40,856 nucleotides of DNA from Giesbergeria sp. (lineage in GTDB: Bacteria; Pseudomonadota; Gammaproteobacteria; Burkholderiales; Burkholderiaceae_C). A program made the position numbers and the translations under genes. Below, one piece after another: positions 16,466 to 38,352 of this stretch. How positions within the stretch are numbered: position 1 is the stretch's first letter; each line of letters opens with the position of its first letter. The stretch is taken from assembly GCA_023150295.1 (NCBI GenBank), contig JAKLLE010000030.1, positions 1-40,856 of the forward strand, given 5' to 3'. The notes under the pieces are model-generated. The model worked only from the letters and a program-made list of their open reading frames with translations, was not told the DNA's origin and did not search any database.

Positions 16466-17755
16466 ATGAATGCACTGCAAATTTTTCTGCCCTGCGCCGC
16501 TGGCGTCGAGGGTTTTCTGGCCGACGAGGCACACCGCGCCACCGGCCTGGCGGGCAACGACCTGCTCACCGGGCGCGGCGGCGTGTTGCTGCGCGCTTCC
16601 TGGCGCGATGCGCTGCTGCTCAATCTACACAGCCGCCTGGCCCAGCGCGTGCTGGTGCAACTGGCGCTTCGGCCCTACCGCAGCGAAAACGACCTGTACG
16701 AACTGGCCAGCAGCGTGGCCTGGGAAATCTGGTTCACCCCGCGCCAGAGCTTCAAGGTCGAGGTCACGGCCCAGCACAGTCCGCTCAAGAGCCTGAACTT
16801 CGCCGCCCTGCGCGTGAAGGACGCGGTGGCTGACCGCTTCCGCGCCAAAAGCGGCGTGCGCCCCGACGTCAACACCCAGTGGCCCGATGTGCGTATCCAC
16901 CTGCACCTGACCACCGACGAAGCCACGGTCTATATCGACACCTCGGGCGAGCCGCTGTTCAAGCGCGGCTGGCGCGAGGACAAGGGCGATGCGCCGCTCA
17001 AGGAAACACTGGCTGCCGCCATGATCGCTGCCAGCGGCTGGGACCCGCATGGCGAGGACCCCGTGCCGCTGTACGACCCCTGCTGTGGCAGCGGCACGGT
17101 GGTCATCGAGGCGGCGCAAATCGCCTGCCGCATTGCGCCTGGCCTGCGTCGGCGCTTTGCCTTCGAAAAGCTCCTGCCCTACCAGGCCCATGTCTGGAAT
17201 GCTATAAAAAATGAAGCTACCAGCGCAATACAGGCAAGCCCTGTAAGCATATTTGGCAGTGATGTTTCGCACCGTATGGTCGATTTTGCCCAGCGCAACG
17301 CCGAGCGCGCCGGTGTGGCCCAGGCCGTGCAACTGCGCGGCGGCGACGCGCTGCAGCGCATGCCGCCTTGCGACTCCCCGGGCCTGATGCTGCTGAACCC
17401 CCCCTATGGCGAGCGCATTGCCGCCGCCGGTACCGCGGGGCAAAACGCCAGCGAGCGCGCCACCCTGCGCGCCCAGGGCGCCGCCCAGGGCCGCGAGACG
17501 GCCCACACCGACGACGGCGGCGAGTTCTTCAGCCAATTGGCCGCGCACTGGAAGAAGCATTACACCGGCTGGTCGGCCTGGATGCTCACGCCCGACCTCA
17601 AGCTGCCCGGCAAGATGCGCCTGAAAGAGTCGCGCCGCGTACCGCTGTGGAACGGCCCCATCGAATGCCGCTTGTTCCGCTTCGACCTGGTGCGAGGCTC
17701 GGCGCGCGCGCGGCCCCAGGGCAGCGCAGCGGAGCCCAGCGATGGCGGCACCTGA
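16466..17755 (+). CDS. rlmL: RlmL-type 23S rRNA (guanine-N2) methyltransferase
   Basis: This 429-residue protein begins with a THUMP-type RNA-binding region (about 1-155) and continues with a Rossmann methyltransferase domain: motif I region DPCCGSGTVVIEAA (about 208) and catalytic motif IV NPPYGER (about 311). It matches the N-terminal half of E. coli RlmL (m2G2445) and lacks the fused RlmK half. Two insertions stand out. One is a copy of the dispersed palindrome, coding for NAIKNEATSAIQASPVS between motif I and the next strand. The other is a polar low-complexity loop of about 35 residues straight after motif IV. The exact rRNA target is by homology only. Confidence 0.83.
   Translation: MNALQIFLPCAAGVEGFLADEAHRATGLAGNDLLTGRGGVLLRASWRDALLLNLHSRLAQRVLVQLALRPYRSENDLYELASSVAWEIWFTPRQSFKVEVTAQHSPLKSLNFAALRVKDAVADRFRAKSGVRPDVNTQWPDVRIHLHLTTDEATVYIDTSGEPLFKRGWREDKGDAPLKETLAAAMIAASGWDPHGEDPVPLYDPCCGSGTVVIEAAQIACRIAPGLRRRFAFEKLLPYQAHVWNAIKNEATSAIQASPVSIFGSDVSHRMVDFAQRNAERAGVAQAVQLRGGDALQRMPPCDSPGLMLLNPPYGERIAAAGTAGQNASERATLRAQGAAQGRETAHTDDGGEFFSQLAAHWKKHYTGWSAWMLTPDLKLPGKMRLKESRRVPLWNGPIECRLFRFDLVRGSARARPQGSAAEPSDGGT
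17200..17258 (+). repeat. Dispersed palindromic element, copy A (inside rlmL)
   Basis: The segment runs GCTATAAAAAATGAAGC, then ACCAGCGC, a spacer and AAGCCCTGT, then a TTTGGC end. It is visibly richer in A/T than the surrounding gene and matches copies at 20611, 23474, 31213 and 37850. It is read in frame and adds about 18 residues to RlmL. Confidence 0.6.
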
Positions 17756-18188
17756 GCCCGGCAGCGCGGCGACCCGCGCGCTGGTGCTGGACACCAACAT
17801 CGTGCTCGACCTGCTGGTCTTTGCCGATGCCGCTGTGCAACCCCTCAAGCCCCTGCTGGCCAGCGGCGCCCTGCGCTGGATTGCCGCACCCGCCATGCGC
17901 GTGGAGCTGGAGCGTGTGCTGGGCTACCCGCAGATCGCGCCGCGCTTGGCGTACTACGGCCTCAGCCCGGCGCAGGTGCTCCAGGCTTTTGATGCGCAGA
18001 CCCATACCGAGGCGCCCGCACCGCGCGCCAGCGCCGTGTGCAAGGACCCGGACGACCAGCAGTTCATCGACCTGGCCGTGCAGTACCGCGCGATCCTGCT
18101 GAGCAAGGACCAGGCGGTACTGCGCCTGCGCAAGCGGTTGATGGCGCTGGGGGTGGAGGCCATGCCCAGCCTGCAGACCATGGGCTGA
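17742..18188 (+). CDS. PIN-domain protein (putative VapC-like ribonuclease)
   Basis: This 148-residue protein has a PIN fold of the PF13470 kind: D17 in LVLDTNIVLD, E55, then the acidic cluster KDPDDQQFID (102-110) and D123 in LLSKDQAV. These supply the usual metal-binding acidic residues of a small ribonuclease. Many relatives are annotated as toxin components, but no antitoxin gene is adjacent. It starts 14 nt inside the rlmL stop region, suggesting translational coupling to an rRNA methyltransferase. Whether it acts as a toxin or as an RNA-processing enzyme is open. Confidence 0.83.
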   Translation: MAAPEPGSAATRALVLDTNIVLDLLVFADAAVQPLKPLLASGALRWIAAPAMRVELERVLGYPQIAPRLAYYGLSPAQVLQAFDAQTHTEAPAPRASAVCKDPDDQQFIDLAVQYRAILLSKDQAVLRLRKRLMALGVEAMPSLQTMG

Positions 18189-18197
18189 GGCGGCGCC

Positions 18198-18860
18198 TCA
18201 GTCAAACCCCCGCATCTCCCCCCAGGCCTCGAACGGATCGCGCTCGCTGCGCCATTGGTTGATGGCTGCGCCCTCGTCGGGCCAGCCCAGCGCCAGACCG
18301 GCAAACAGCAGGCGCTCGGGTGGCAGGCCCAGAAATGCGCGCACGGGTTGGGAGCGGAACGCCCAATACTCCTGCGCACAGGTGCCCAGGCCTTGCTCGG
18401 TGGCCAGCAGCATCACGGTCTGCAGGTAGATGCCCAGATCGGCCCATTGCGGTGGGCCCATGCGCCGGTCCATGCTGATGAAAACCCCCACGGGGGCGCC
18501 AAAGAACTCAGCGTTCTTCTGCATCTGATGCAGGCGCGCCACCCGCTCTTCCCGTGGAATGCCGATGGCGGCGTAGAGCTGCTCGGCATTGCGCCAGCGT
18601 CGCGTGCGGTAGGGCTCCCACAGGTCGGGCGGATAGACGGCGTACTCGGGCTCTTCCTGCATGGGCGCGGTGGCCACCAGCTGCAGCAACTGCGCCAGCG
18701 GCTCGCCCGTTAGCGCGTGCACATGCCAGGGCTGCAGGTTGCCGCCGGATGCTGCGCGAGCGGCCTGTTCCAGAATGCTGCGCACCATGGCAGCCGGGGG
18801 TGGTTCGGGCTTGAAGGCGCGCACCGAGTGGCGCTGGCGTACGGCGTCGGAAACGTTCAT
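18198..18860 (-). CDS. FMN-dependent nitroreductase family protein
   Basis: This 220-residue protein begins VSDAVRQRHSVRAFKPEP, the classic nitroreductase N-terminus contacting FMN phosphate, followed by ARAASGGNLQPWHV and, late, LATEQGLGTCAQ, also typical. Members use NAD(P)H to reduce nitro compounds, quinones or enones; the natural substrate is unknown. The ATG overlaps the stop of the kinase-fold gene (ATGA), so the two form a unit. It converges with the PIN gene, only 9 bp away. Confidence 0.88.
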   Translation of the reverse strand: MNVSDAVRQRHSVRAFKPEPPPAAMVRSILEQAARAASGGNLQPWHVHALTGEPLAQLLQLVATAPMQEEPEYAVYPPDLWEPYRTRRWRNAEQLYAAIGIPREERVARLHQMQKNAEFFGAPVGVFISMDRRMGPPQWADLGIYLQTVMLLATEQGLGTCAQEYWAFRSQPVRAFLGLPPERLLFAGLALGWPDEGAAINQWRSERDPFEAWGEMRGFD

Positions 18861-19693
18861 GGTGTCGCAGCGGCGTGGGGGGAAGTAGTCAGCAGATCGC
18901 AGGCGGCGCGGGCGCGCTGCAGGTCGCGCCCCCAGCGCCGGTCTTGCGGCAGGTGGCGCAGCCACGACAGGCGCGTGGCCGTGGTGGTCAGAAGGGCGCC
19001 CAGTGCGGCGGGCTGCTCGGCCAGCCAGTGCGCCCAGACTGCGCGCGCTTCGGGCAATGCCCCGGCCTCGCGCAGATACAGTGCCGTGGAATGCACATAG
19101 CACAGCGCATCGCGCGCCTGGCACAGCGCCAGCGGCAGGCTGGCCAGGGGGTCGTCTTCGAAGTCGATGAAGCCCAGCACACCGTCGGGGCAGCGCACCA
19201 GGTTCCGGGCAAAAGCCTGGCTCAGGCAGGCGCCGCGCGTATGCACGGCCTGCAGCGCGGCCAGCCCTTCTTGCCATAGGGCCAGCGTGGCCTGCGGGCC
19301 TGCGGCGCTGGCGGCCTGCATTTCGCCATCAAACGACGGGGTGGCCTCGCCGGGGCGGCCCAGGTGGCGCAGCAGCAGGCCCTCTGGCTGCTGGGCCAGC
19401 ACCTCGGGCACGCGCAGGCCCAGGGTGGCCAGGCTTTGCAGGCGCCGTGCCTCGGTGGCAATGGCGGCGGTGCCACCCAGGTTGGGCACGGGGCGCAGCA
19501 CCTGCAGCCGGGTCAGCCAGGCCAGCAGCCCCAGCACGCGGTAGCGCGCCATGCCGTGGCGCGGGCCCGCCTTCTTGAGCCAGACCTGCTCCGGCCCCAG
19601 GCGGTAACTGGCCACGTTGGGGGCCTGCAACGCACACTGGGTGCGCAGGAAGGCTGCGTAGTCGGGCGGGGAGGGGGCGGCGGTCAGAGTCAT
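18857..19693 (-). CDS. Protein-kinase-fold protein (Bud32/lipopolysaccharide-kinase-like)
   Basis: This 278-residue protein appears to belong to the small prokaryotic kinase-like families. LRHLG (about 108-112) could be the hinge, FARNLVRCPDGVLGFIDFEDD (about 158) looks like the catalytic loop plus the DFG-equivalent IDFED, and KK near residue 40 may supply the ATP lysine. The catalytic Asp before RN is not obvious (the segment reads CLSQAFARN), so activity is uncertain. Substrate is unknown. The ATG at 19693 leaves no upstream alternative. It is translationally coupled to the nitroreductase downstream. Confidence 0.6.
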   Translation of the reverse strand: MTLTAAPSPPDYAAFLRTQCALQAPNVASYRLGPEQVWLKKAGPRHGMARYRVLGLLAWLTRLQVLRPVPNLGGTAAIATEARRLQSLATLGLRVPEVLAQQPEGLLLRHLGRPGEATPSFDGEMQAASAAGPQATLALWQEGLAALQAVHTRGACLSQAFARNLVRCPDGVLGFIDFEDDPLASLPLALCQARDALCYVHSTALYLREAGALPEARAVWAHWLAEQPAALGALLTTTATRLSWLRHLPQDRRWGRDLQRARAACDLLTTSPHAAATP

Positions 19694-19790
19694 CGGTGCG
19701 TGGGTGGGCGGCTACACTTGCCGCCGTGCGCATGCCGCACCCCGCGGCTTTGCATCCGGCAGCGCCCCGGGCATCATAAAGTGCACCGCG

Positions 19791-20606
19791 ATGAACGCTG
19801 AATCCTCCGCCCACACCCCGGCCCTGGGCCCCGACGAGCTGGACGAGCTCGACACCCTGCTCGACGACCTGCGCACGCGCGCTGAAGAAATCCCCCAATG
19901 GGAGTTCTGCGACGGCTTTCTGGCAGCGCTGGCCTGTATGCGCCGCCCCGTGCCGGTGGCTGAGTTTCTGCCCATGCTGCTGGGCGACGGCCTGCCGCTG
20001 CAGGTGGCCGAGGGCGAACCCCTGCCCGTCCTGGAGGCGTTTGCCGACGCTGCGCAGCAAGCCCGTTTACTGGAGCTGTGGACGCGCCGCTGGGACGAGG
20101 TGCAGCGCCAGCTCGATGCGCAGGTGCAAAGCCTGGACGAAGACGAGGCCTACGCCCCCGAAGCCATGGACATGCGCGGCGCCATCGCCAGCCTGCCCGA
20201 GGCCGAGCGCGCCGAAATGCAGGGCCAGGAGATCCCCTCGTTCGGCCAGATCTGGGCGCTGGGTTTCATGTTTGCCGTGGAAAACTGGCCCGAGGAATGG
20301 GCCGCACCGCGCGACAAGGAAGCCGCACAGTGGCTGGACGACGCGATGGAGTACATCGTCGCGCTGACCGAGGACGACACCGGCAAGCCCGAAGTCTGCA
20401 TGTACAGCGACGACGGCCCCCCCAGCACCAGCAAGGCGCGCGTGGAGGCGTTGGGCGAGGCCATCTGGGCGGTGTATGACCTGCGCCAGCTCTGGCGCAG
20501 CCTGGGCCCGCACCAGGAGCCCGTGGTCAAGACGGCCGAGCCCGGCCGCAACGATCCCTGCTGGTGCGGCAGCGGCAAGAAGTTCAAGAAGTGCCACGGG
20601 GCTTGA
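19791..20606 (+). CDS. UPF0149 (YecA/YgfB) family protein with C-terminal SEC-C zinc motif
   Basis: This 271-residue acidic protein has a YgfB/YecA-type helical domain over most of its length (DFLAAL-like segment CDGFLAALACMRRPV near 45). It ends in a SEC-C motif, RNDPCWCGSGKKFKKCHG, with zinc ligands C257, C259, C268 and H269, as at the tail of SecA. YecA of E. coli is a ribosome- and SecA-related SEC-C protein; the role here is inferred only. The ATG at 19791 is chosen because the longer ORF start (19704) runs through the probable promoter; CATAAAGT lies 8-15 bp before the ATG. Confidence 0.8.
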   Translation: MNAESSAHTPALGPDELDELDTLLDDLRTRAEEIPQWEFCDGFLAALACMRRPVPVAEFLPMLLGDGLPLQVAEGEPLPVLEAFADAAQQARLLELWTRRWDEVQRQLDAQVQSLDEDEAYAPEAMDMRGAIASLPEAERAEMQGQEIPSFGQIWALGFMFAVENWPEEWAAPRDKEAAQWLDDAMEYIVALTEDDTGKPEVCMYSDDGPPSTSKARVEALGEAIWAVYDLRQLWRSLGPHQEPVVKTAEPGRNDPCWCGSGKKFKKCHGA

Positions 20607-20610
20607 GCGA

Positions 20611-20674
20611 TTGCTCCTGAAATGTGAGCTATTGGCGTTTGCTGGACGGGCGATTTGGGCTGTTATCAGCCCAA
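20611..20674 (+). repeat. Dispersed palindromic element, degenerate copy E, with an 8-bp hairpin
   Basis: Just after the SEC-C gene stop, the run AGCTATTGGCGTTTGCTGGA with GGGCGATTTGGGC resembles the other copies of the element. The right part forms a perfect hairpin, TTGGGCTG (20655-20662), loop TTAT, CAGCCCAA (20667-20674). It lacks a T-tract, so termination is uncertain. The remaining gap to 20772 shows no gene. Confidence 0.45.
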
Positions 20675-20772
20675 GACCACACGACTTGGTGGTGGCGCAG
20701 TAAGATGCAGGCGCGCGGTTCCTCACAGGGAATCGCAGGCGGTTGATTGCATTCTTCACTGTCGAGGTCACC

Positions 20773-21795
20773 ATGCGCCGTACTCCAGCAGTCCCCGGCA
20801 AGCGCCGCTCTTTTCTCGCAGTGGCGGGTGGGGGTGTTTGGGCCTTGCTCGCCCTCATCCACGGCGCTGCAAACGCGGCGCAAGAGAAGAAGATCACGCG
20901 CATTGGCGTCACCAAGATCGTCGGGCACGCCGCACTGGACGCGGCCGAGCGCGGCTTTGAGGTGGCCCTGGCCAGTGCAGGCTTCAAGGAAGGCGTCAAC
21001 GTCGTTTACGACCGGCAGAACGCACAGGGGGACATGGCACGCGCAGAAGCCATTGCGCGCCAGTTCGTCACCGACCGGGTGGATCTGATCCACACCATCG
21101 CCACACCCACCACGCAAGCCGTGCTCAAGACCCGCACCGACATTCCGGTGGTGTTTTCCGGCATCACAGACCCGATCCAGGCCGGTATCGTCCCGCGCGG
21201 CAGCGTATCGGGGAGCAAGACGGGCAACAACGTCACCGGCGTGAGCGACCCCTGGCCCGTGCGCCTGCAACTGGAAACCTATGCCAAGTTTGTGCCCCAG
21301 GCCAGGAAGTGGGGCACCATCTACAACCCGGCCGAGGCCAATTCGGTGTCGTACGTGCAGACCATGCGCGAGGCGGCCAAATCGCTCGGGTTGGAGTTGA
21401 TCGAGGCCACGGCCACCAACGCTGCCGAGGTCGAGCTGGCCGCCAAGTCCCTGGTGGGCAAGGTGCACGCGATCAACATCACTTCCGACAACACCTCTGT
21501 GGCCCATTTCGCGGTGATCGCCCGGATGTGCAACCAACACCAGATCCCGCTCTTTGCGGGCGATGTGGACAGCGTTCCCAAGGGGGCCATCGCGGCCTAT
21601 GGCATGGATTACTTTCTGGTCGGCTACTCTGCCGGAAAGAAGGCGGCGCTGGTACTCAAGGGCGTCAAGCCGGGCGACATTCCCTGGGGCCCGGTAGAGA
21701 AGTTCAGCCTGGTGGTCAACCCCAGTGCAGCACAACTGCAGGGCGTGCGCATCAGCGACGAGTTGCGCAAACGTGCCGACAAGGTACTGGACTGA
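20773..21795 (+). CDS. Periplasmic substrate-binding protein, ABC_sub_bind family, with Tat-like signal
   Basis: This 340-residue protein of the PF04392 solute-binding family (TrpX/YtfQ-like folds) starts after a twin-arginine-like signal (KRRSFLAVAG, R11-R12, hydrophobic stretch, then GAANA-AQ). Typical segments are KITRIGVTKIVGH at the mature start, TPTTQAVLKTRTDIPVVFSGITDP and YNPAEANSVSY. The ATG at 20773 has GAGG upstream; a TTG ten codons earlier is less likely. No permease or ATPase gene follows. The next gene, 9 nt on, is a membrane diguanylate cyclase, so this protein may be a ligand sensor for it. The ligand is unknown. Confidence 0.87.
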   Translation: MRRTPAVPGKRRSFLAVAGGGVWALLALIHGAANAAQEKKITRIGVTKIVGHAALDAAERGFEVALASAGFKEGVNVVYDRQNAQGDMARAEAIARQFVTDRVDLIHTIATPTTQAVLKTRTDIPVVFSGITDPIQAGIVPRGSVSGSKTGNNVTGVSDPWPVRLQLETYAKFVPQARKWGTIYNPAEANSVSYVQTMREAAKSLGLELIEATATNAAEVELAAKSLVGKVHAINITSDNTSVAHFAVIARMCNQHQIPLFAGDVDSVPKGAIAAYGMDYFLVGYSAGKKAALVLKGVKPGDIPWGPVEKFSLVVNPSAAQLQGVRISDELRKRADKVLD

Positions 21796-21804
21796 GCTGC
21801 CCCC

Positions 21805-23016: not shown

Positions 23017-23023
23017 GCAGAAT

Positions 23024-23563
23024 TCAATCGCGCAACAGCGCCTGCAATTGCCCCAGCGCCCGCCGCACCGTGGCGGCGCGCACGGCGGCGCGGTCGCCAG
23101 CGAACTGGCAGCGCTCGCTGTGCGTGTGCCCGTTCACATGCCAGGCCAGCCAGACGGTGCCCACGGGCTTGTCGGCGCTGCCGCCCGTGGGGCCGGCCAC
23201 GCCGGTGACGGCCACGCTGGCCTGGGCGTGTGAGCGCGCAATGGCGCCCTCGGCCATGGCGCAGGCCACGGGTTCGCTCACGGCGCCATGCTGCGCGATC
23301 AGCGCGGCGGGCACGCCCAGCAGTTCGGTCTTGGCGGCGTTGGAGTAGGTCACAAAGCCGCGCTCGAACCATTGGCTCGACCCCGCCAGGTCGGTGCAGG
23401 CGGCGGCGATCATGCCGCCCGTGCAGCTCTCGGCCGTGGCCAGCATCTGGCCGCGCGCCAGCAGGCGGGTAGAAATATCAATCAAAATGGCCTCTGGCGC
23501 TTTACCATCAAGCGCCAGCAGCTCCTGATTTGATAGCAACTGTGGTGCGGCAGGCTGGCTCAC
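23024..23563 (-). CDS. pncC: Nicotinamide-nucleotide amidohydrolase (CinA C-terminal domain type)
   Basis: This 179-residue enzyme deamidates nicotinamide mononucleotide in pyridine-nucleotide salvage. Family signatures are ATAESCTGGMIAAACTDLAG, then FVTYSNAAKTELLGV, then AVTGVAGPTGG and KPVGTVWLAW. The start is taken as GTG at 23563: it overlaps the pgpA stop as GTGA and has GGAGG five bases upstream. The ORF's first GTG at 23575 lacks a ribosome site. The N-terminal stretch (about LLSNQELLALDGKAPEAILI) is encoded by a copy of the dispersed palindrome, ahead of the enzyme core. Confidence 0.9.
   Translation of the reverse strand: MSQPAAPQLLSNQELLALDGKAPEAILIDISTRLLARGQMLATAESCTGGMIAAACTDLAGSSQWFERGFVTYSNAAKTELLGVPAALIAQHGAVSEPVACAMAEGAIARSHAQASVAVTGVAGPTGGSADKPVGTVWLAWHVNGHTHSERCQFAGDRAAVRAATVRRALGQLQALLRD
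23474..23541 (-). repeat. Dispersed palindromic element, copy B (inside pncC)
   Basis: This is the best-preserved copy. CTGGCGCTT (23494-23502), a 7-nt loop and AAGCGCCAG (23510-23518) give a perfect 9-bp stem, flanked by ATCAATCAAAATGG on one side and TGATTTGATAGC on the other. It codes, in frame, for the N-terminal extension of PncC. Confidence 0.65.
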
Positions 23564-24072
23564 CAGAACCTCCACAGCGCAATCACCAGCAGCGTGCAGA
23601 AGGCGGCCACGAAGTCGTCGAACAGAATGCCCCAGCCGCCGCGCCAGCCAAAGCCCTTGAACAGGCTGTCGGCCCAGGCCACGGGGCCGGGCTTGGCGGC
23701 GTCAAAAAAGCGAAACAGCGCAAAGGCCGCGAACTGCCCCCAAAACCCCATGGGCATGGCCAGCCACAGCACCAGCCAGAAAGCCACCACCTCATCCCAG
23801 ACGATGGCGCCGGGGTCGGCCACGCCCATGTGGCGTGCGGTCACGGTGCAGGCCCACCAGCCGCCCAGGGTGCTGAAGGCGATGAGCAGGCCCATCTGCA
23901 AGGGGGAGGCAAACCAGGCCTGCAACACCAAAAAGGCCAGCCAGGCCCACAGCGTGCCCACCGTGCCCGGCGCCTTGGGCGAGAGGCCTGCGCCAAAGCC
24001 CAGGGCGATGCAGTGGGCCGGGTGGGCGAGCAGGAAGCGCGGGCCAGGGCGCAGCGAGGGAATGGCGCTCAT
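23560..24072 (-). CDS. pgpA: Phosphatidylglycerophosphatase A
   Basis: This 170-residue inner-membrane enzyme dephosphorylates phosphatidylglycerol phosphate in phospholipid synthesis. Family motifs are GFGAGLSPKAPGTVGTLWAW near the N-terminus, PGAIVWDEVVAFW in the middle and DAAKPGPVAWADSLFKGFGWRGGWGILFDDFVAA at the end, with about four hydrophobic segments between. The ATG at 24072 has GAAGG upstream; the longer ORF (to 24192) has no family similarity and enters the neighbouring gene. It overlaps pncC by 4 nt. It is usually found beside thiL, which here lies 7 kb away. Confidence 0.92.
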   Translation of the reverse strand: MSAIPSLRPGPRFLLAHPAHCIALGFGAGLSPKAPGTVGTLWAWLAFLVLQAWFASPLQMGLLIAFSTLGGWWACTVTARHMGVADPGAIVWDEVVAFWLVLWLAMPMGFWGQFAAFALFRFFDAAKPGPVAWADSLFKGFGWRGGWGILFDDFVAAFCTLLVIALWRFW

Positions 24073-24133
24073 TGGACTACCTTCGTGCTTCGCACTGCGG
24101 TGCGAGCTTGCTTGGGAGCGGCCCGGCGCGCGC

Positions 24134-25795: not shown

Positions 25796-25818
25796 GGCGG
25801 GGTTCTCCTATGCGAAAT

Positions 25819-25841
25819 CGGCAGTGCGTGGCGCACTGCCG
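25819..25841 (-). other. Perfect 10-bp hairpin between two co-directional genes
   Basis: CGGCAGTGCG (25819-25828), loop TGG, and its exact complement (25832-25841) sit in the 74-nt gap before the MuiA-like gene. Only ATTTCG follows on the minus strand, so it is not a classical terminator. It may partly terminate transcription or protect an mRNA end, setting the ratio of the two products. Confidence 0.5.
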
Positions 25842-25869
25842 GCCATGCTAGCACCCGCCAGCCCTGGCT

Positions 25870-26331: not shown

Positions 26332-26358
26332 GGCAAACAATCCTTGCAAAGGGGGCGA

Positions 26359-28031: not shown

Positions 28032-28039
28032 GCCAGGCG

Positions 28040-28068: not shown

Positions 28069-28099
28069 GAGAACAGCGCCTCTGCACCCCCACCACGCC

Positions 28100-28882: not shown

Positions 28883-30271
28883 ACCCCGCGTCCCCGCAGA
28901 TGACCCGCCTGGGTTCGCAGGCCTCGGGCCAGACCGCAGCGCGTCGGTCTGTGGGGCTGCGCCTGGCCTGGGCCACGGTGGCGTTTTGCGCGGTCTATAT
29001 CGCGTTCAGCGTGGCCGTCTTCTCCTGGATGGCCTGGAGGGATGCGCGCGCGCATGGAAGCCGAGCTGGCCCAGATGGAGCAGGCCTATGCCACCACGCT
29101 GGCCAAGGCCATCTGGGAGCTGGACCGCGAATCATTGCAGAACCATGTGGACAGTGCGGCCGGCGTTCCGTCGGTAGGCCGGGTCGCGGTCAACGTGGGC
29201 CTGGCCAGTCAGGCGCCAGAAGTGCTGGAGTTCCGCCGCGAGGGGTGGATGGCGCCAGGTTGGGCGCCATCGCGCACGCTGGCGCTCGCGTACGAGCCCT
29301 ACCCCGGAGGGAAGCAATCGGTGGGGGCTTTGCACCTGCAAGGGGATGAGCAGGTTTTGTGGCAGCGCCTGCGCGGGGAGCTTGCCTCCATTGTGGTGGC
29401 GCAGTTGCTGCAGTCGCTGTTGCTGGCGGGGCTGGTCATGGGGATTTTCAACCGCATGGTGACCGTGCACATCCGTCGCATTGCCCAGCATCTGTCACGA
29501 CTGCGCCCGGATACTCTGAACGTTCCCCTGCAACTGCAGCGCACCGGCCGCAGCCACGACGAACTGAGCGATCTGGTGGAGGGGGTCAACCAGTTGCAGG
29601 GCAGCCTGTCCAACTACCTGGAGCAACAACAGCGCTACGAAAAAGAGCTGGCCGACCACCGCGACCGACTGGCCCAAATGGTCGATGCCCGCACCATCGA
29701 GCTTCAGGAAGCCAACGCCCGACTGCAAGGGCTGGCGCGCACCGATGCGCTGACAGGGCTGCCCAACCGGCGGTCTTTCGACGAGGTGCAGGCCAATGAA
29801 ATCCGCCGCGCCCGGCGCAACCAGGAGCCCTTGGCGTGCATGATCGCCGACATCGACGATTTCAAGGCCTACAACGACCATTACGGGCATGCCATGGGCG
29901 ACCACTGCCTGTGTGCCGTGGCGCACACGCTGCGTGCCAGCCTGGGCCGGGCGGGCGACTTGGTCGCCCGCTTGGGCGGTGAGGAGTTTTCCGTGCTGCT
30001 CCCTGGCGCAGAAGTAGCTGCTGCCTGCCTGATGGCTGAGCGCCTGCGCCAGGCCGTGGCTGGCTGTGGCATCGAGCACGCCCACTCTCAGGCGGCCTCC
30101 GTGGTCACCATCAGCATTGGGCTGACCGTGATGGAGCCAGGCAGCAACGCAGATTTCGAAACCCTGTACCAGCAGGCGGATGCAGCACTCTACCGAGCCA
30201 AGGCCATGGGCCGCAACCGGGTGGAATGCCACGTGCCCCCTTCCTTTCCAACCCCAGGAGCAGTGCCATGA
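28873..30271 (+). pseudogene. Membrane diguanylate cyclase (GGDEF) split by a frameshift in a GC repeat
   Basis: The N-terminus (ATG 28873 or 28879, GGAG upstream) encodes one membrane helix (LRLAWATVAFCAVYIAFSVAVFSW) and runs to WRDARAH. The rest, periplasmic sensor, second helix (about LASIVVAQLLQSLLLAGLVMGIF), HAMP-like linker, coiled coil and GGDEF domain with intact GGEEF and RxxD site (RAGD), is in the next frame, open from ATG 29042 to 30271 (409 codons). The switch falls in a run of five GC units at 29044-29053; one extra GC would join the frames as RDARARMEAEL. The cause may be a true mutation, slippage-based switching or a sequencing error. The 409-residue part alone lacks the first helix. 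The stop overlaps the next SBP gene (ATGA). Confidence 0.8.
29044..29053 (+). repeat. Five-unit GC dinucleotide run at the cyclase frameshift
   Basis: (GC)5 lies exactly where the two frames of the cyclase meet. Gain of one unit, or loss of one base, restores a single frame, so length change by polymerase slippage could switch the gene on and off. Confidence 0.7.
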
Positions 30272-30990: not shown

Positions 30991-31002
30991 CGACGGCTGG
31001 CT

Positions 31003-31986
31003 TCAGCCGAAATGGTCGAAGGACGCGTAACGCTGCGCATCCAGCGCCTGGCCCTGGGCATCCACCAGGCGCAGCCCCGGTTCGGCCTCTATGCGCCCGA
31101 TGCGCGTGACCGACGTGCCGCTGGTCTGCGCCGCCTGAGCCACGGCAGAGCGCAGCGCGGCCGGGGCGGTGAAAAGCAGTTCGTAGTCGTCGCCCCCGGC
31201 CAGTGCGCACTGCAATAGCAATTCTGAGTCAAATTGGCACTTGGCGCTTTCTGGATGGGCGCCAGCAGCTATCAAATTAATAGCAGTTGAGGCATCCACC
31301 GTGGCCCCCACGTCCGATGCGCGCAGCACATGTCCCAGGTCGCCCAGCAGCCCGTCGCTCACGTCGATGGCGCTGCTGGCAATGCCGCGCAGCGCCAGGC
31401 CCAGGGCCACGCGTGGTGTGGGCTGCTCCAGCCGCTGTTGTGCGCCCTGCAGCAGGGCCTGGGGCAGGCGAAGGCGGCCCAGCAGCGCCTCCAGCGCCAG
31501 CCGGGCATCGCCCAGGTGGCCGCTCACGTAAAGGTCGTCGCCCGCACGCGCGCCGCTGCGCAGCAGCGCCTGGCCGGGCGGCACCTCGCCAAACACGGTG
31601 ACACACAGGTTCAGCGGCCCGCGCGTGGTGTCGCCGCCCACCAGCGGGCATTGGTGCGCGTCGGCCAGTTGCAGCAGGCCCTGTGCAAAGGCCTGCAGCC
31701 AGGTTTCGCTGGCCTCGGGCAGGGCCAGCGCCAGGGTGAAGCCACGCGGCCGGGCGCCGCAGGCCGCCAGGTCCGAGAGGTTGACCGCCAGCGCCTTGTG
31801 GCCCAGGCGCTGGGGGTCGGTGCCAGCAAAAAAATGCCGCCCTTCGACCAGCATGTCGCTGGAGATGGCCCATTGCATGCCGGGCGTGGGCTGCAGCAGC
31901 GCGCAGTCGTCGCCCACACCCAGCGCCACGCCGGGAGCGGTGGCGGGCCGTGTGAAGAAGCGGCGGATCAGGTCGAATTCACCCAT
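31003..31986 (-). CDS. thiL: Thiamine-monophosphate kinase
   Basis: This 327-residue enzyme phosphorylates TMP to TPP with ATP in the last step of thiamine diphosphate synthesis. Family motifs are GVGDDCALLQP, SSDMLVEGRHF, VNLSDLAACGARP, GGDTTRGP, AIDVSDGLLGDLGH and GGDDYELLF. A copy of the dispersed palindrome adds about 25 residues (roughly STAINLIAAGAHPESAKCQF) in a variable loop between the SDGL and GGDDYE motifs. It converges with the SBP gene upstream in the window, 12 bp apart. There is no space for a TPP riboswitch in front of it (32-nt gap). TPP is also the cofactor of the 2-oxoacid oxidoreductase at 633-5364. Confidence 0.93.
   Translation of the reverse strand: MGEFDLIRRFFTRPATAPGVALGVGDDCALLQPTPGMQWAISSDMLVEGRHFFAGTDPQRLGHKALAVNLSDLAACGARPRGFTLALALPEASETWLQAFAQGLLQLADAHQCPLVGGDTTRGPLNLCVTVFGEVPPGQALLRSGARAGDDLYVSGHLGDARLALEALLGRLRLPQALLQGAQQRLEQPTPRVALGLALRGIASSAIDVSDGLLGDLGHVLRASDVGATVDASTAINLIAAGAHPESAKCQFDSELLLQCALAGGDDYELLFTAPAALRSAVAQAAQTSGTSVTRIGRIEAEPGLRLVDAQGQALDAQRYASFDHFG
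31213..31288 (-). repeat. Dispersed palindromic element, copy C (inside thiL)
   Basis: The core TGGCGC (31242-31247), an 11-nt loop and GCGCCA (31259-31264) is flanked by CAATAGCAATT on the left and GCTATCAAATTAATAGC on the right. It is read in frame within thiL. The A/T-rich flanks contrast with the surrounding gene. Confidence 0.65.
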
Positions 31987-32018
31987 GGGTGCGGATTGTG
32001 TGCTGGATTGCGAGGGGC

Positions 32019-33140
32019 TCAGCTTGCTCCCCTAAAGCGCTGCGCCGCCTGGCGGCTGACCTCGGCCAGGAGCTGTTCCTGGCGCTGGCGCTCGCGCAGC
32101 CAGCGGGCGTCGTTCTGGCCCGCCTGTGCCTCGCTGCGCAGCAGGTGCAGCGCAGCGGTGGCGCCGTGGGTGGCGGCGTGTCCGGCAATGCGATCCAGCG
32201 TTTGCACCAGGTGCTCGCGCAGCGGCATGTGCTGGCCCGTGGCCGGGTCCACGTACACCGCGTCCAGCCCGAAGCGGCAGGCCTGGAAGCGGTTGTAGGT
32301 ATAGACGAGGTAGTCGTCCTCTTCGGGCATGAAGGGCTGCTCGGCCAGAAACCAGGAGGCCAGCGATTGCACGAAGCCCGCGAGGGCGGCGGCGCGTTCG
32401 ATGGTCAGCGGCGTGTCGAACACGCGGATCTCGATGGTGCCGTACTCGGGCTTGGGGCGTATGTCCCAGTAAAAATCCTTCATGCTCTTGACCACGCCGG
32501 TGCGCGTCATCTTGTCGAAGAACTGGCCGAAGGCCTCCCAGGTCAGCACAAAGGGCGCGCGGCCCGAGAGCGGGAAGGCAAACACCGAGTTGAGCCGCGC
32601 CGAGTCGAACTGCGTGTCCTGCCCCTGCACAAAGGGGCTGGAGGCCGACAGCGCTATGCAGTGCGGGATGTAGCGGCTCATGCGGTGCAGCATGAGCAGC
32701 GCGGAGTCGGCGTCGGGGCAGCCGATGTGCACATGCTGGCCGAAAATGGTGAACTGCTTGGACAGGTAGCCATACAGCTCGGACAGTTCGCGAAAGCGCG
32801 GCTTGTCGTAGATGCGCCGCTCGTGCCATTGCTGGAACGGGTGCGTGCCACCGCCGACCACGGCGATGTTGAGCTTGTCCGCGCACTTGACCAGCGCATC
32901 GCGGATGGGCATGAGCTGGCCCAGCACCTCGCTGCTGCTGTGGCATACGCCGGTGGAGATTTCGATCATGCTGTTCGTCATCTCGGGCACCACGCTGCCG
33001 GGCAGCGGGATCTTCGCCATGAGCCGCAGCATGTCCTCGGCGTAGGGGGCCAGGTCGTAGTCGTGTGTGTTGACGAGCTGCAGCTCCAGCTCCACGCCCA
33101 GCGTCAGGGGTTCGGAATGGTGGAAGGCCTCAAGAGCCAT
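32019..33140 (-). CDS. YbdK-type carboxylate-amine ligase (glutamate-cysteine ligase 2 family)
   Basis: This 373-residue protein of the GCS2 family has [12 protein letters not shown] at the N-terminus (metal/substrate Glu residues), [18 protein letters not shown] and [10 protein letters not shown], and ends with the usual ERQRQEQLL helix. E. coli YbdK has weak glutamate-cysteine ligase activity; the natural substrate in this clade is unsettled. The ATG at 33140 has a strong AGGAGGAGA site, and the ORF beyond it is shadow of the antiporter. It overlaps the antiporter stop by 11 nt, so the two are co-translated. A link between a thiol-type ligase and a CPA2 (Kef-like) antiporter would be functionally sensible but is inference. 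Confidence 0.88.
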
Positions 33141-34392
33141 GGCTGTCTCCTCCTTGGCGGTTGTGAGCCAGGGCGGCCCACCAGGGCTTGGAACTTTCGC
33201 CCGTGCGGTAGATGGCCACGGTGGCCAGGATGGCGCCCAGCACCTCCATGAGCAAAATGGCTGGCAGGGCCACACCGGCAATCAGGTGGCCGGTGGATGG
33301 CGACGCCATGGCGAACTGCGATGCGATGAGCAGCGCAATGGCCGACATGGGCGTCATCGCCATGCCCACCCACAGCGCCTGGCGCCAGCTTGCGCCGCTG
33401 CCCACGTTGCCCAGGCCCACGCCCACGGCCTTGGCCAGCAGGCGCGCCAGAATCAGGGTCAGCACCACGCCGACCACCGGCGCGCTCCAGTCGGCCTGCG
33501 CCGCCACGGTGGACACCAGCACGAACATCAGCATGGTCAGCATGGACGAGGCGCTGCCCAGCTGCCGCGGCCAGGCCCAGGGGCGCGGGTGCATCTGCTT
33601 GATCAGCATGCCCGCCAGCAGTGCCGCCAGTGGCGCAGAACCGCCCATATGGGCGGCCACCGTGGTGGCCGCCGCCACCAGGGCGAGCAGCAGCATGGAG
33701 GTGTTCTCGCTCGTGGGGCTCATGATGCGCAGTGCCGAGCGCAGCACCAGTGCCAGCACTGCTGCCACGAGGATAGACACGCCCAGCACCACCAGCACGG
33801 GGGACAGCCGGTCCACCAGCGTGACGCTGCTGCGGTTGATGAGCTCGGCATGGGCGCTGCCCAGCGTCAAGGCATATAGAGTGGACAGCGTGGCCAGCAC
33901 GATGGCGCGCTCGGTCACCGGGCCTGCGGCCTGGGTGTCGGCCACCACACGCGTAAGCACGGCGGGCGAGGCCGCCAGGGCCACCAGCGCCAGTGGTGCG
34001 GCGGCGCGTGCGGGAACGTCCAGCCACAGCAGAACCCAGTACACGGCGCAGTAGGTCAGGGCCGACTCGGCAATGCTCTGCACCAGCACCATGGGGTTGT
34101 GGCGGAACCAGCGCAACGGGATGCGGCCCCCGCACTCGAACAGCACGATGGCCATGCCCAGCTCCAGCAGAAACAGGCCGATGCCCTGCAGCGGCCAGAC
34201 CGCGCCGCTGAAGCCTGCCAGCCCGGCTGCCGTGCCCACCAGCGAATAACCCACCACCTTGGGCAGACCGGCATGGCGTTGCAAGAGATAGCCGACGAGG
34301 GCGGCCACCGCCAGCAGCAGCGACCATTGGACCGTGGGCAGCCCGGCCGAGGGGCGCAGCCACTGCGCCCAGAAGGTGAGGATTTCGTTCAT
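33130..34392 (-). CDS. CPA2-family cation/proton antiporter (membrane domain only)
   Basis: This 420-residue protein has about 12 hydrophobic helices in the Na+/H+ exchanger fold of the KefB/C branch: [45 protein letters not shown], and the helix [17 protein letters not shown]. It lacks the cytoplasmic RCK/TrkA-N domain of full Kef proteins, ending about residue 420. It therefore probably acts without nucleotide or glutathione gating, or with a separate partner. The ATG at 34392 is the first of the ORF. The 158-bp gap upstream (34393-34550) shows no gene and no clear promoter. Confidence 0.86.
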
Positions 34393-34550
34393 GGCATTGT
34401 TTCTCCGCGTCGATCGGGGGTGGCCCGGCGGGGGCGGTCAGGCAATGGGCATCGCCGCCTGCGGTGGCAGGGGCGGGCGGTGGCAGGAAACCTTCCCCGA
34501 ATTTACACGCCAAACAGCGTTCGGGGTGTAGGACAGGGGGGGCTTTGGCG

Positions 34551-36542
34551 CTACGCGCGCTGCGGCCAGAAGAAGCTCAGCGGTGCGCTGCGCAGCCGCG
34601 ATCGGATCGCGCGGTAGATGCGCGAGCGATCCACGCCGCTCACGTTCTGCGCCCGCAGTGCCACATGGAAGGCCAGCCAGAAGCTGACAGCCACGTTCAG
34701 CGCGCCCAGCAGGGGCAGGGTCAGTGCGGCCCACCAGAAGGCGGGTGTCTGCAAACCTTGCAGGCCCAGGCTCGCGGTGGCTGCGCCCAGTTGCCCGGAC
34801 GACAGTGTCACGTGCCGCACATCCAGCCCCAGGCCGAAGAAGCCCGCGACCGCAGGCGTCAGCCCCAGCATGAAGCCGAGCGAGATGTTGGCCGCGAAGC
34901 CGGAGATGTTTTCGCGCAGAAAACCTGCCCAGCGCACGGCCCGCTGCGCACCCAGCCAGCGCGTGATGCGCGGGTTGTAGCGCAGGGCAGAGTCCAGGCG
35001 GTGCAGGACGAACCAGTTTTCCGTCCACCCGGCGACGATGCTGGACGCAAACAGCAGCACCCCGGTGAATGCCGCAAACAGCACCGAAGGGCCCAGCAGG
35101 TGCAGCGAGTCGAGCACATGCAGGGCCTTGTCTTCGCTGAGGAAGGGGGCGCCCAGTACATAGGCCAGCCCCAGTGCCAGCAGCAGTGCCGCCGGGTACA
35201 CCACCAGCACGTTGCCCAGCACGGCCGCCACCTGCGAGCGCACCAGGTGCGTGACCTCGTCCACAAAGGACTGCACGGCGCTGTCGGAATCCAGCTCCTT
35301 GAGCTTGGCGGCCATGGCCGGTGCCGTCATGGCGGGCTGCTTGGTGGCCACGGTGAAATGCAACAACTGGATCAGCACAAAGCTCAGGGCATAGTTCACC
35401 CCCGCCAGAAACCCGCCCCAGAAGGCCGACAGCGCCAGCGCATACAAAGCAAACTTGACCAGTGTGGTGAAGGCCATCACCGCGCCGCCCCCGGCGGCCT
35501 GGGCCACCATGGTGCGGTACTCGGCCGGGGTGCGGGTGATGTAGTGCTCGCCGGTCTCGGCGCTGCGCTCGGCCACCTTGGCGGCCAGCAGGGAGGAGTT
35601 GGCGCTCAACAGCGCGCGCAGGCTGCGCCGCTCCTGCCCCACCTTGACGAGTTGCGCCAACAACTGTGCGGCACTCGCGGCCGGGGACGGCGAGAGCACG
35701 CCATCGAGCAGCGCGCGCACGCGCAGGATGCGCTCGCGCAGCTGGCGCACGCGGAACACCAGGCCCACGGAAATGCCGCTGTCGTCGAAATGCTGGTACA
35801 CCGTGGCGGCTGCGGCGCGGCAGGCTTCGAGCCGCTCGCGCAGGCGCTGCGCCGCCTCGTCCAGCCGCTCGGGCGTGCGCAGGCCGTGCAGCACCTCCAC
35901 GCGCAGGCTCTCCACGTCGCGGATCAGCGCGTGGAAGGGCTGCGATTCGCGCGCCTGCTCGCTCATGCGCAGGCGCAGGTCGGGGGCAAAGCCGGTGGAG
36001 AGGATCTGCCCGGCGCAGTAGGTGATGGCGTCCAGCAGTGCGGTCTTCCACTGCAGCCCCTGGTTGTCCGGGCCCGCCAGCAGGCGCACCAGCCGGTTGA
36101 GCTGGGGTTCGGGCACTGCGGCCAGCCACTGGGCGTCAAAGGCCGTGGGCAGCGCCAGGCTGAACAGCTCCGAGGCGTCCAGTGTTTCGGGGCTGCAGGG
36201 CAGCAGCTTGTGGCGCAGGCGCTCGGCGATCTCACTGACCATGGCGTTGCGCGGGGCAAAGCCAAAATCGGCCAGTAAGGTAGTGATGTCCACCGTCTCC
36301 ACCAAGACCTGCCACCAGGCCTGCAGGCGCGATTGCAGTTGCGGGTCGGCGTCCACCGCATCGATAAAGGCCTGCACCCGGTCGAGGGCCGCAGGCACCG
36401 ACGCCTGGTCCCCTCGGACCCAGGCCGTCAGATCCAGCAGCCACAGGTGGCGCTCGGCCAAGCCCGCGCCGGGATCCAGCCGGGCCAGCAGCGGCTCCAG
36501 GTTGCCCGTCGCGGGGGCGGTGGTCAGGAGGGGCGCGCTCAA
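34551..36542 (-). CDS. Gcr-type site-specific recombinase family membrane protein
   Basis: This protein of about 663 residues belongs to PF10136, named after a gonococcal recombinase-like gene. The sequence is a soluble helical N-terminal half (about 1-340) followed by several membrane helices (for example [68 protein letters not shown]). I see no tyrosine- or serine-recombinase catalytic motif, so the recombinase name should not be taken as function. The start is TTG at 36542: GAGGG lies seven bases upstream and it overlaps the apaG stop as TTGA. The ORF beyond that is shadow of apaG. Real role unknown, probably envelope-related. Confidence 0.82.
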
Positions 36543-36949
36543 TGCAAAACCCTCGTGCCCAGTGGGATGCTGGTGGGGCTCGTGCCAGCGGCTTCCAGCA
36601 GGAACAGTGGGATGGAGGCTTCGAACACGTGCCCGTCCTCCCCCACGCAGTGGTAGTGGCCGTGCATGGTGCCGGTGGGCGTGCGCAGCGGGCAACTGCT
36701 GGTGTACTGGAAGGACTCGCCCGGCTGGAGCAGGGGCTGGCGCCCCACCACGCCCAGGCCTTTGACCTCCTGGGTGTGCCCCAGCGCGTCGCTGATGATC
36801 CAGTGCCGAGAGATCAGCTGCGCCGCCACGGCGCCTTGGTTGGTGACCGTGACCGTGTAGGCAAACTGGTAGTCGTCCTGCGCAGGATCGGACTGACTGG
36901 CCAGGTACTCGGGTTGGACTTCAACGTTGAACGCATGCTTGGGTCTCAT
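36539..36949 (-). CDS. apaG: ApaG protein
   Basis: This 136-residue protein covers the whole ApaG domain, an immunoglobulin-like fold: [72 protein letters not shown], then [10 protein letters not shown]. ApaG is linked to Co2+/Mg2+ resistance and to diadenosine polyphosphate metabolism in enterics; its molecular role is unclear. The ATG at 36949 is the family start; the ORF further upstream is the shadow of rpe. It is divergent from rpe with a 30-bp gap and coupled to the downstream membrane gene by a 4-nt overlap. Confidence 0.92.
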
Positions 36950-36979
36950 GTCTCGAATGGTAACTGCGACAATACCGCC

Positions 36980-37660
36980 ATGAGCCCCACCTATCGCATT
37001 GCCCCCTCGATCCTGTCCGCCGACTTTGCCCGCCTGGGCGAGGAAGTGCGCAGCGTCATCGCCGCCGGTGCCGACTGGATCCATTTCGACGTGATGGACA
37101 ACCATTACGTGCCCAACCTGACCTTCGGCCCCATGGTGTGCCAGGCGCTCAAGCCCCATGCCGTCACGCCCGCAGGCCAGGCCGTGCCCATCGACGTGCA
37201 CCTGATGATCCAGCCCGTGGATGCACTGGCCGCCGCCTTTGCCGAGGCCGGGGCCGACTACATCAGCTTCCACCCCGACGCTTCGGGACATGTGCACCGC
37301 AGCATCCAGGCCATCCGCTCCAAGGGCGTCAAGCCCGGGCTGGTGTTCAACCCCGCGCAGCCGCTGGACGTGCTGGACTGGGTGATCGATGACATCGACC
37401 TCATCCTGATCATGAGCGTCAACCCCGGCTTTGGTGGCCAGAGTTTCATCGACTCGGCCCTGCGCAAGATCGAGGCCGTGCGCAAGCGCATCGATGCGTC
37501 GGGCAAGGACATCCGCCTGGAGGTGGATGGCGGCATCAAGCAGGACAACATCCGCCGCGTCGCCGATGCGGGCGCAGACACCTTCGTGGCGGGCAGCGCC
37601 ATCTTCGGCAAGCCCGACTACCGCGGCGTGATCGACGCCATGCGGGCGCAGCTGGCGTGA
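36980..37660 (+). CDS. rpe: Ribulose-phosphate 3-epimerase
   Basis: This 226-residue TIM-barrel enzyme interconverts ribulose-5-phosphate and xylulose-5-phosphate. Family signatures are [53 protein letters not shown] and LEVDGGI, which contain the metal His/Asp and phosphate-binding residues. The ATG at 36980 starts the conserved N-terminus, and the longer ORF is shadow of apaG. Its stop overlaps the gph start (TGATG). In Calvin-cycle autotrophs rpe-gph pairs sit with cbb genes; no cbb gene is in this window. Confidence 0.95.
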
Positions 37661-38352
37661 TGCAAGTCCCCTTGCAAGCGGGGGCGCTGGACGCCACGAT
37701 CATCGACCTTGACGGCACCTTGGTGGACACCCTGGGCGACTTTGCCGAGGCGCTGGGCCGTATGCTGCATGATCTGGCTTTGCCGCCAATTGATGCGGCG
37801 CAGATCGAGCGCATGGTGGGCAAGGGATCGGAGCATTTGCTGCGTTCAGTGCTCAATCATGTGCTGGCGCCCATGGATGAAGCGCGGCGTGCTATCAAAA
37901 TAGAAGCATTGTTTGCGCAGGCCTGGGCCAGCTACCAGGCGCACTACCGCGCCATCAACGGCCAGTGTGCCCAGGTGTACCCCGGTGCGGACCAGGGTTT
38001 GCAGGCGCTGCGTGCGCGTGGCCTGCGCCTGGCCTGTCTGACCAACAAGCCCCATGCCTTTGCGGTGGATTTGTTGCACGCCAAGGGGCTGGCGGGGTAT
38101 TTCGAGCATGTATTCGGCGGCGACAGCTTTGAGCGCAAGAAGCCCGACCCGCTGCCCCTGCGCAAAACCTGCGAGGCCCTGGGCACCCAGCCCGCGCGCA
38201 CCCTGATGGTGGGCGACTCCAGCAACGATGCCCAGGCCGCCCGCGCGGCCGGCTGCCCGGTGGTGCTGGTGACCTATGGCTACAACCACGGCCAGAGCGC
38301 CCGCAGCGTGGATGCGGACGGCTGGGTGGATTCGCTCACGCAGCTGGCGTAG
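37660..38352 (+). CDS. gph: Phosphoglycolate phosphatase
   Basis: This 230-residue HAD-family hydrolase has motif I DLDGTLVDT (nucleophile and acid Asp), motif II in CLTNKPH, the lysine in FERKKPDP, and motif IV GDSSNDAQAA. It removes 2-phosphoglycolate. The ATG at 37660 overlaps the rpe stop by one base; a GTG just before it is less likely. A copy of the dispersed palindrome codes for VLAPMDEARRAIKIEA in the helical cap (about residues 67-82). It converges with the chemoreceptor gene, leaving only 7 bp and no visible terminator. Confidence 0.91.
   Translation: MQVPLQAGALDATIIDLDGTLVDTLGDFAEALGRMLHDLALPPIDAAQIERMVGKGSEHLLRSVLNHVLAPMDEARRAIKIEALFAQAWASYQAHYRAINGQCAQVYPGADQGLQALRARGLRLACLTNKPHAFAVDLLHAKGLAGYFEHVFGGDSFERKKPDPLPLRKTCEALGTQPARTLMVGDSSNDAQAARAAGCPVVLVTYGYNHGQSARSVDADGWVDSLTQLA
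37850..37908 (+). repeat. Dispersed palindromic element, copy D (inside gph)
   Basis: CTGGCGC, TGGATG, GCGCGGC and then GCTATCAAAATAGAAGC follow the order seen in copy C. The arms are partly decayed, so the stem is imperfect. It is read in frame. The peptide AIKIEA matches AIKNEA from copy A. Confidence 0.55.

Follow-up and report, generated by a model that had tools for sequence, protein, structure and literature searches.

A dispersed 64-bp repeat of Giesbergeria and other genera of its family, conserved in its DNA letters, as a putative protein-recognised chromosomal site

The 40,856-nt stretch of DNA analysed here (the window; Giesbergeria sp., assembly GCA_023150295.1, contig JAKLLE010000030.1, positions 1 to 40,856) raises the question of why one short, dyad-bearing sequence should stand at five places, four of them within the conserved genes rlmL, pncC, thiL and gph. 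A first-pass annotation had taken these for palindromic elements inserted in frame. Profile and pattern scans of the window identify the five sites as copies of one repeat, and comparison across genomes shows that the letters of this repeat, and not its base pairing, are conserved. The copies are constrained in place on either strand, lie mostly between genes or at gene ends, and are jointly absent from one clade of the genus. They may represent a dispersed chromosomal site recognised by a protein, a reading to which we give an even chance and in which the reader itself is putative.

Architecture of the repeat and the constraint on its letters

A position weight matrix (PWM) profile, trained on 109 copies of the source genome without the two strong window copies and scoring 77-nt segments, recovers exactly the five places named by the first-pass annotation (17.4-76.4 bits), the rest of the window staying at or below 8 bits. 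As a control, 2,047,582 bases from fetched loci (overlapping parts counted repeatedly) were scanned in reverse, and no match passed 8 bits. A covariance model built from 17 aligned copies, including the two strong window copies, taken alone gives the rlmL copy an E-value of 0.0056 and leaves the site at 20612 (E 0.47) and the gph copy (E 9.2) not significant; the orthologues of the latter two score higher, reaching 73.9 bits for the 20612 site and 34.9 and 27.1 bits for gph in the related genomes G004 and G006, respectively. Across the source genome (G000; 3.69 Mb in 142 contigs) a scan with the core pattern TGGCGCTT-N7-AAGCGCCA, allowing up to 3 mismatches, returned 179 matches as against 23 for the reversed pattern. 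The covariance model matches all 150 candidates scored in this genome, which contains at least 150 copies. In the close relative G023, seven 20-kb stretches picked independently of copies hold 21 distinct copies above 25 bits in 139,307 bp, i.e., about 150 per Mb or one per 6.6 kb.

The profile of 111 distinct copies from the source genome describes an element of about 64 nt. An A/T-rich, weak left edge is followed by AAAT and GGCCTC, with the left box AATCAAATnGGCCTC, and then by a GC dyad, TRGCGCTTAT-N-AAGCGCYA, and, at fixed spacing, an A/T dyad, AGCTAT-N7-ATAGCA. The GCGC, GCT and TAGC segments are nearly invariant, and two loop columns are almost devoid of information. The window copies have 42-52% G+C and occur singly, not in tandem. 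Two more TGGCGC...GCGCCA dyads of the window, at 13430-13447 and 29250-29269 with loops of 6 and 8 nt, are not copies, no profile score there exceeding 8 bits.

The constraint on the letters is seen most directly within genes. In a resampling test the codons of each gene were redrawn synonymously 300 times according to its own usage and scored by the profile. For thiL, the copy-bearing genus genomes provided 25 loci, and at every one of them all 300 redraws scored below the original sequence (z 5.0-8.0); the z-scores were 0.1-0.5 in the copy-free genus members G002, G005 and G008, 3.2-9.2 in 13 other genera with at least 5 copies, and -1.6 to 5.9 in 16 with fewer, values which at their upper end indicate that some copy-poor genera keep remnants of the thiL copy. 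Similarly, no redraw attained the observed score in 7/7 bearing genomes for rlmL, 4/4 for gph and 7/8 for pncC, the failing pncC being that of G001, whose N-terminus had been cut off by tblastn. In copy-free genomes the rlmL of G005 gave z 1.8 (17/300 redraws) and the gph of G002 z 0.8 (58/300). Over 28 thiL loci of the genus, including the three copy-free ones, 67% of third codon positions are A or T in the copy versus 17.6% elsewhere in the gene, in agreement with the earlier remark that the copies are A/T-richer than the genes around them, and the codons of shared residues are identical in 73% of pairs in the copy as opposed to 59% outside it.

Divergence between the source genome and G023 follows the information content of the profile. 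In 25 orthologous copies, differences amount to 33/700 (4.7%) in high-information columns, 102/650 (15.7%) in middle ones and 71/300 (23.7%) in the low-information (loop) columns, with 480/3000 (16%) in the ungapped flanks. Pairing in stem 1, on the other hand, stays close to that of shuffled sets: 734/888 cells versus 727 in the source genome, 350/480 versus 346 in G023 and 208/304 versus 197.5 at the thiL site. A set selected by the covariance model pairs more (219/232 versus 205 shuffled), and selection by such a model favours pairing.

Inheritance, placement and loss of the sites

Orthologues of thiL in all 26 genus genomes examined align across the site. The copy is recognisable in the 25 loci of the copy-bearing genomes (25.8-82.3 bits), and among 29 other genera fetched 12 have it at more than 20 bits. 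For pncC the position of the copy is shared by 8 further genomes of the genus (39.7-78.5 bits), and outside the genus 7 of 29 genera have it at more than 25 bits. Among the genomes fetched for them, the rlmL copy is likewise in place in 6 other copy-bearing members of the genus (18.0-36.7 bits) and the gph copy in G023, G006 and G004 (21.7-34.9 bits). The 20612 site has counterparts 3' of the orthologous gene in G012, G007, G001 and G006 (41.6-73.9 bits), none being found at that gene in G023, G013 and G004. Between the source genome and G023 a copy is present in both at 25 of 27 colinear sites, a comparison that leans to shared sites, 13 of the 20 G023 stretches having been chosen for strong copies; one of the two unshared sites is 46 nt shorter in G023 and the other has diverged, with no clean new insertion seen among the colinear sites. 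A further 14 copies of the source genome matched G023 on one side only or non-colinearly, and for the other 70 the stretches fetched from G023 gave no counterpart. The copies are old and have been inherited at the same places across the genus and partly across genera. The first-pass annotation had held that the same residues in distant genera would speak against its repeat. Such residues do occur in thiL and pncC, as noted above, because the copies are old and inherited and not because the repeat is unreal. It had also suggested looking for orthologues that lack the segment at precise boundaries; among the genic sites, none was found to be empty by a clean 64 nt.

Twenty-three of the 26 genus genomes have 65-149 matches at E <= 1e-5 among 150 scored candidates, and whole-genome scans of G002, G005 and G008 gave none at that threshold; further, 400 kb of G002 contain no profile match above 25 bits. 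In a ThiL tree computed without the columns of the copy these three form one clade (Shimodaira-Hasegawa approximate likelihood-ratio test (SH-aLRT) 99) inside the genus, with support of 85-94 for the enclosing forks. Since the trio is nested in the genus and the nearest other genera (G043, G049 and G111) are also copy-rich, the copies were most likely lost in this clade. Indeed, the motif has decayed where the protein segment persists, in the thiL of all three copy-free genomes and the rlmL of G005. Over 29 other genera the genome count (counted up to 26) and the thiL copy score are correlated (Spearman 0.82) without correction for kinship; fully supported independent pairs numbered only two. 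No substitute motif was seen in 432 kb of G002. As side observations on this genome, a 400-kb stretch of it (contig C18, 1-400000) has 57.9% G+C, and its GCTAGA words are over-represented and genic (22/23 and 24/26 in the 400-kb part), looking like Leu-Glu codons.

Beyond the genus, matches at E <= 1e-5 were obtained in 57 of the 200 genomes drawn from the family, representing 46 of the 141 genera sampled, upholding the earlier suspicion that such repeats are common in the family. An order-wide draw yielded 6 of 300 genomes, five of them from the same family (the source genome included) and one other, which has a single match, a completeness of 89% and a contamination of 6%. A record bearing the title Acidovorax defluvii also contains a copy, at 100.6 bits. 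Carriage by phages or plasmids is not favoured, next to none having been found with the limited queries used: with a single copy as query, 0 of 50,697 phage records and 4 of 72,556 plasmid records matched, and a pattern which fits just 22 of the 111 source-genome copies matched 1 of 2.9 million viral contigs. The copy on that contig (locus L329, 1687-1727) scores 46.5 bits.

The placement of the copies was assessed using a simple, purpose-written gene finder. Of the 111 source-genome copies, 13 lie within genes, 52 between genes and 46 across gene ends, 42 of the last touching a 3' end. Among 54 G023 copies above 35 bits, 12 are within genes, 41 between them and 1 at the edge of a stretch; the 41 intergenic copies occupy 22 co-directional, 16 convergent and 3 divergent pairs, the corresponding figures for all pairs there being 237, 61 and 62. 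The same bias appears in the source-genome loci, with 20 convergent versus 5 divergent copies and background pairs of 37 versus 32. In the unselected G023 stretches 6 of 21 copies are within genes. The window with four of its five copies in genes is therefore unusual, genic copies being a minority (12-29%) elsewhere. With respect to co-directional genes, copies have the same orientation in 29 cases and the opposite one in 36 in the source genome, and 11 and 11 in G023. The 149 best copies on a 3.97-Mb contig of G004 are spaced like random points (coefficient of variation (CV) 1.02; largest gap P 0.39), and a Ter exclusion or a matS/SlmA-like layout was rejected on this random spacing and the lack of a terminus gap.

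The assignment of the four genic copies of the window to rlmL, pncC, thiL and gph stands on the Pfam matches and Protein Data Bank (PDB) relatives of their hosts (Table 1).

Table 1. Repeat copies and their host genes, with window coordinates
Feature	Position	Strand	Evidence or score
rlmL-like methyltransferase gene	16466-17755	+	Pfam THUMP, UPF0020, RlmL_1st; E. coli RlmL 3v97
Copy in rlmL, degenerate, over native codons, WNAIKNEATSAIQASPVSIFGSD	17200-17263	-	PWM 40.5 bits
Spacer copy, degenerate, just 3' of gene 19791-20606	20612-20675	-	PWM 22.0 bits
pncC gene	23024-23575	-	Pfam CinA; PDB relatives
Copy in pncC, strong, antisense in N-terminal part	23475-23538	+	PWM 76.4; cmsearch 69.2 bits, E 5.4e-17
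thiL gene	31003-31986	-	Pfam AIRS, AIRS_C; PDB ThiL relatives
Copy in thiL, strong, antisense, residues 234-255	31222-31285	+	PWM 67.1; cmsearch 68.1 bits
gph-like HAD phosphatase gene	37660-38352	+	Pfam HAD families; phosphoglycolate phosphatase relatives
Copy in gph, degenerate	37845-37908	+	PWM 17.4 bits

The genic copies keep the frame open, as had been stated. The accompanying expectation of about 17-25 extra residues in each gene was not confirmed. At the rlmL site it is the E. coli protein (3v97) that is longer, by 4 residues, and a W, a K and an EA encoded by the end of the copy are common to both; the copy is therefore written over native codons without lengthening the protein, which indicates that sites can also arise over existing codons and not solely by insertion. 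ThiL has 7 residues more than each of the three PDB relatives shown; most thiL loci, whether or not they show the DNA signature, have 51 residues between two anchors, and some loci lacking the signature have 45-49. Gph exceeds its best match, 2hsz, by 4 residues and 2nyv and 2yy6 by about 15, and its length in the copy-free G002 equals that in the source genome (231 versus 230 residues). The N-terminus of PncC is longer than in its PDB relatives, and the copy perhaps adds an N-terminal piece here. The claim of in-frame insertion into genes is correct only in part: the frames are open, the added residues are few or none, and genic copies are a minority.

Weighing the explanations

The reading preferred here would make the repeat a dispersed, sequence-specific DNA recognition site of about 64 bp, read by a dedicated DNA-binding protein, with the copies decaying in place once this reader is lost. 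The reader could be a chromosome-associated protein acting at gene ends, and our guess at its likeliest job is that of a chromosome anchor or boundary there.

A selfish origin would account for several of the same features. A REP- (repetitive extragenic palindromic) or MITE-like (miniature inverted-repeat transposable element) unit could have been spread long ago by a transposase acting in trans and be almost static now, its conserved letters reflecting the needs of the enzyme and its decay the loss of that enzyme. The patchy occurrence over genera and the single layout shared by all copies fit such a history, as do 7 gene pairs orthologous between the source genome and G002, at which intergenic copies make the spacer 36-81 nt longer (by the gene finder's own borders the shorter spacer in G002 holds at 5 of the 7, one disagreeing and one not being refound). 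Insertion in one lineage or deletion in the other would each produce these spacer differences. Set against a selfish element are the 25 of 27 colinear sites common to the source genome and G023 with no clean new insertion among them (it is at such an insertion that the terminal inverted repeats and target-site duplication of a MITE would be sought), the rlmL copy on native codons, and the selection in place in thiL, which is not expected of dead copies; we regard it as unlikely. A RAYT (REP-associated tyrosine transposase) was rejected as the mobiliser: G003 has 146 copies without a PF01797 match and G023 has 145 with an IS200-like match only, and the copy-free G002, G005 and G008 each have a RAYT-like PF01797 match. 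Moreover, only 2 of 10 fetched regions around Y1-transposase genes (9 RAYT-like, 1 IS200-like) hold a copy (27.6 and 44.6 bits), below the expectation from density. The RAYT-like Y1 transposase, mostly of about 235-270 amino acids, is itself found in 19 of 24 genus members searched (in the source genome at locus L036, 2005-2706, contig C78) without linked repeats, and looks domesticated.

DNA uptake signals offer another model, in which biased uptake by competent cells together with recombination would write and keep the site chromosome-wide, also in genes. The uptake sequences of Neisseria and Pasteurellaceae are letter-level sites found on both strands and also in coding sequence, and the upkeep of the present repeat at the DNA level inside genes, its use of either strand, its random-like spread on the G004 contig, its near-absence from viral contigs and from phage and plasmid records and its complete absence from one clade are all reminiscent of them. 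Known uptake signals, however, have short cores of 9-12 bp and are denser; the present element, with its 64-bp layout and about one copy per 6.6 kb, is much longer and sparser, and, given the limited reach of the queries used, little weight attaches to its rarity in phages and plasmids. Loss of competence through ComEC is not supported by the copy-free G002 and G005, both of which have ComEC, and a lost receptor would not show there; in G008 (84% complete) no ComEC match was obtained. We consider an uptake signal improbable. The model of the first-pass annotation, Rickettsia palindromic elements (RPEs) inserted in genes and adding a tolerated peptide, would explain the open frames, the longer PncC N-terminus, the 7 additional residues of ThiL and the 15 or so by which Gph exceeds two of its three PDB relatives. 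It does not sit well with an rlmL copy that adds nothing, with a Gph that is just 4 residues longer than its best match and of the same length in copy-free G002, with genic shares of only 13/111, 12/54 and 6/21, and with the want of any clean empty site; the parallel is thus not well supported and in our estimation highly improbable. Finally, the two dyads and the preference for 3' sides and convergent pairs could point to an RNA element at transcript 3' ends, such as a hairpin, a terminator or a stabiliser of mRNA, and some double-sided stem changes and the excess pairing of the copies chosen by the covariance model agree with this. As pairing is close to shuffled in three of the four sets, and neither the source-genome nor the G023 copies prefer a strand, such an element has a very slender chance of being the answer; Rfam gave no match in the window.

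Several observations weigh against a protein-read site as well. The reader protein is putative and its binding a prediction. The profile used in the thiL resampling (111 copies) included the two strong window copies, those 111 copies had been selected by score, and sequences from one genus are not independent. Loss across genera is graded, counts of 1-25 occurring on the scale to 26, and even within the genus G010 has 65 matches; G089, G070 and others with 0-3 matches retain a thiL remnant (z 4.3-5.9). The 36-81 nt by which the spacers of G002 are shorter at 7 orthologous gene pairs also fit inserted elements, as does a Gph about 15 residues longer than two PDB relatives. Some stem pairs change on both sides, and the thiL regions of further genomes of the genus hold six co-directional copies, in part orthologous to each other, that all run opposite to the genes. 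In sum, what the first-pass annotation had observed is partly confirmed, and its interpretation partly supported.

Relation to known repeats and to DUF1010

REP units and bacterial interspersed mosaic elements (BIMEs) comprise many small palindromic units at gene ends, and in REPs a 5' GTAG precedes the stem. The present element resembles them in its gene-end placement, and differs in having no link to a RAYT and in conserving sequence rather than pairing; the A/T dyad is preceded by GYAG, the second place of which is T in 26% and C in 63% of copies. Of repeats described in the literature, RPEs are likewise dispersed with some copies in frame inside genes; according to PMC10969869, they are about 150 bp long, nearly half genic, and add peptides, unlike the 64-bp, mostly non-genic element described here with its native codons in rlmL. 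The BRE, a short repeat of Comamonadaceae and Bordetella, is also mostly intergenic, and is given in PMC3110155 as about 90 bp long, sometimes tandem, with up to 29 copies per genome and 69% G+C in Bordetella; identity with it was rejected in view of the 64-bp length and the single window copies of 42-52% G+C. The closest precedent is a motif pair, GCTTAT(N)5AAGCG, of Acidovorax ebreus TPSY, for which section 13 of PMC5217627 gives 114 copies, 107 intergenic and 5 in genes, with 44 convergent versus 4 divergent, and which it calls a potential novel motif. It has the same core as the present element, is mostly intergenic and likewise favours convergent over divergent pairs, and all 101 occurrences of this pair in 829 kb of fetched DNA fall inside copies. 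The account in that section concerns the core pair only, without the 64-bp element, a function, orthologous sites, loss or a coding overlay. The Polaromonas motif ATAGCT(N)22CAAAAG from that source has 0 occurrences in the same 829 kb, and the portion of PMC2755013 consulted contains nothing relevant to the element. Searches of open-licence papers yielded none that names the 64-bp element or describes its overlay on coding sequence, its loss or a link to DUF1010.

This last link emerges from a search of the source genome with PF06231 (DUF1010), which gave 67 matches at E <= 1, just one of them over the cut-off. Of these, 36 fall at copies among the 150 listed, without exception on the same strand and in 34 cases in matching codon phase, and the 20 best matches fetched all sit on a copy (38.8-91.9 bits); in control genomes 11 of 14 had weak matches and none one over the cut-off. 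As the matches fall on copies and on the same strand, the first 22-26 positions of DUF1010 correspond to the translated repeat. The entry is filed as a protein family of 66 positions, of which the repeat accounts for these first 22-26 only. A copy (56.1 bits) is also carried by the DUF1010 gene that lies between dfrA12 and aadA2 on the E. coli plasmid NZ_MZ513635.1 (locus L332, 2897-3187), which has a class 1 integrase; the cassette is presumably the one named gcuF or orfF. Among 72,556 plasmid records, 1,810 contain DNA similar to it, with an identity of at least 95% in 1,750, and the copy suggests that the cassette gene came from a chromosome of this bacterial family.

Taken more broadly, the sites may belong to a genome-wide DNA-reading system of the family, in which they would serve a chromosome-organising protein or mark self-DNA for uptake. 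Such a system would write the 64-bp site and maintain it in place even across conserved protein genes, and its loss in one lineage would lead to joint decay of the sites; we think this possible, at somewhat less than an even chance. If true, a large environmental family would have its own genome-wide DNA-recognition system, and a natural copy-free clade would be available in which to seek the missing reader. Housekeeping genes, thiL and rlmL among them, are crossed by selection at the DNA level, so that codon-based rate tests can mislead there, and the first third of Pfam DUF1010 finds its explanation as a translated DNA repeat.

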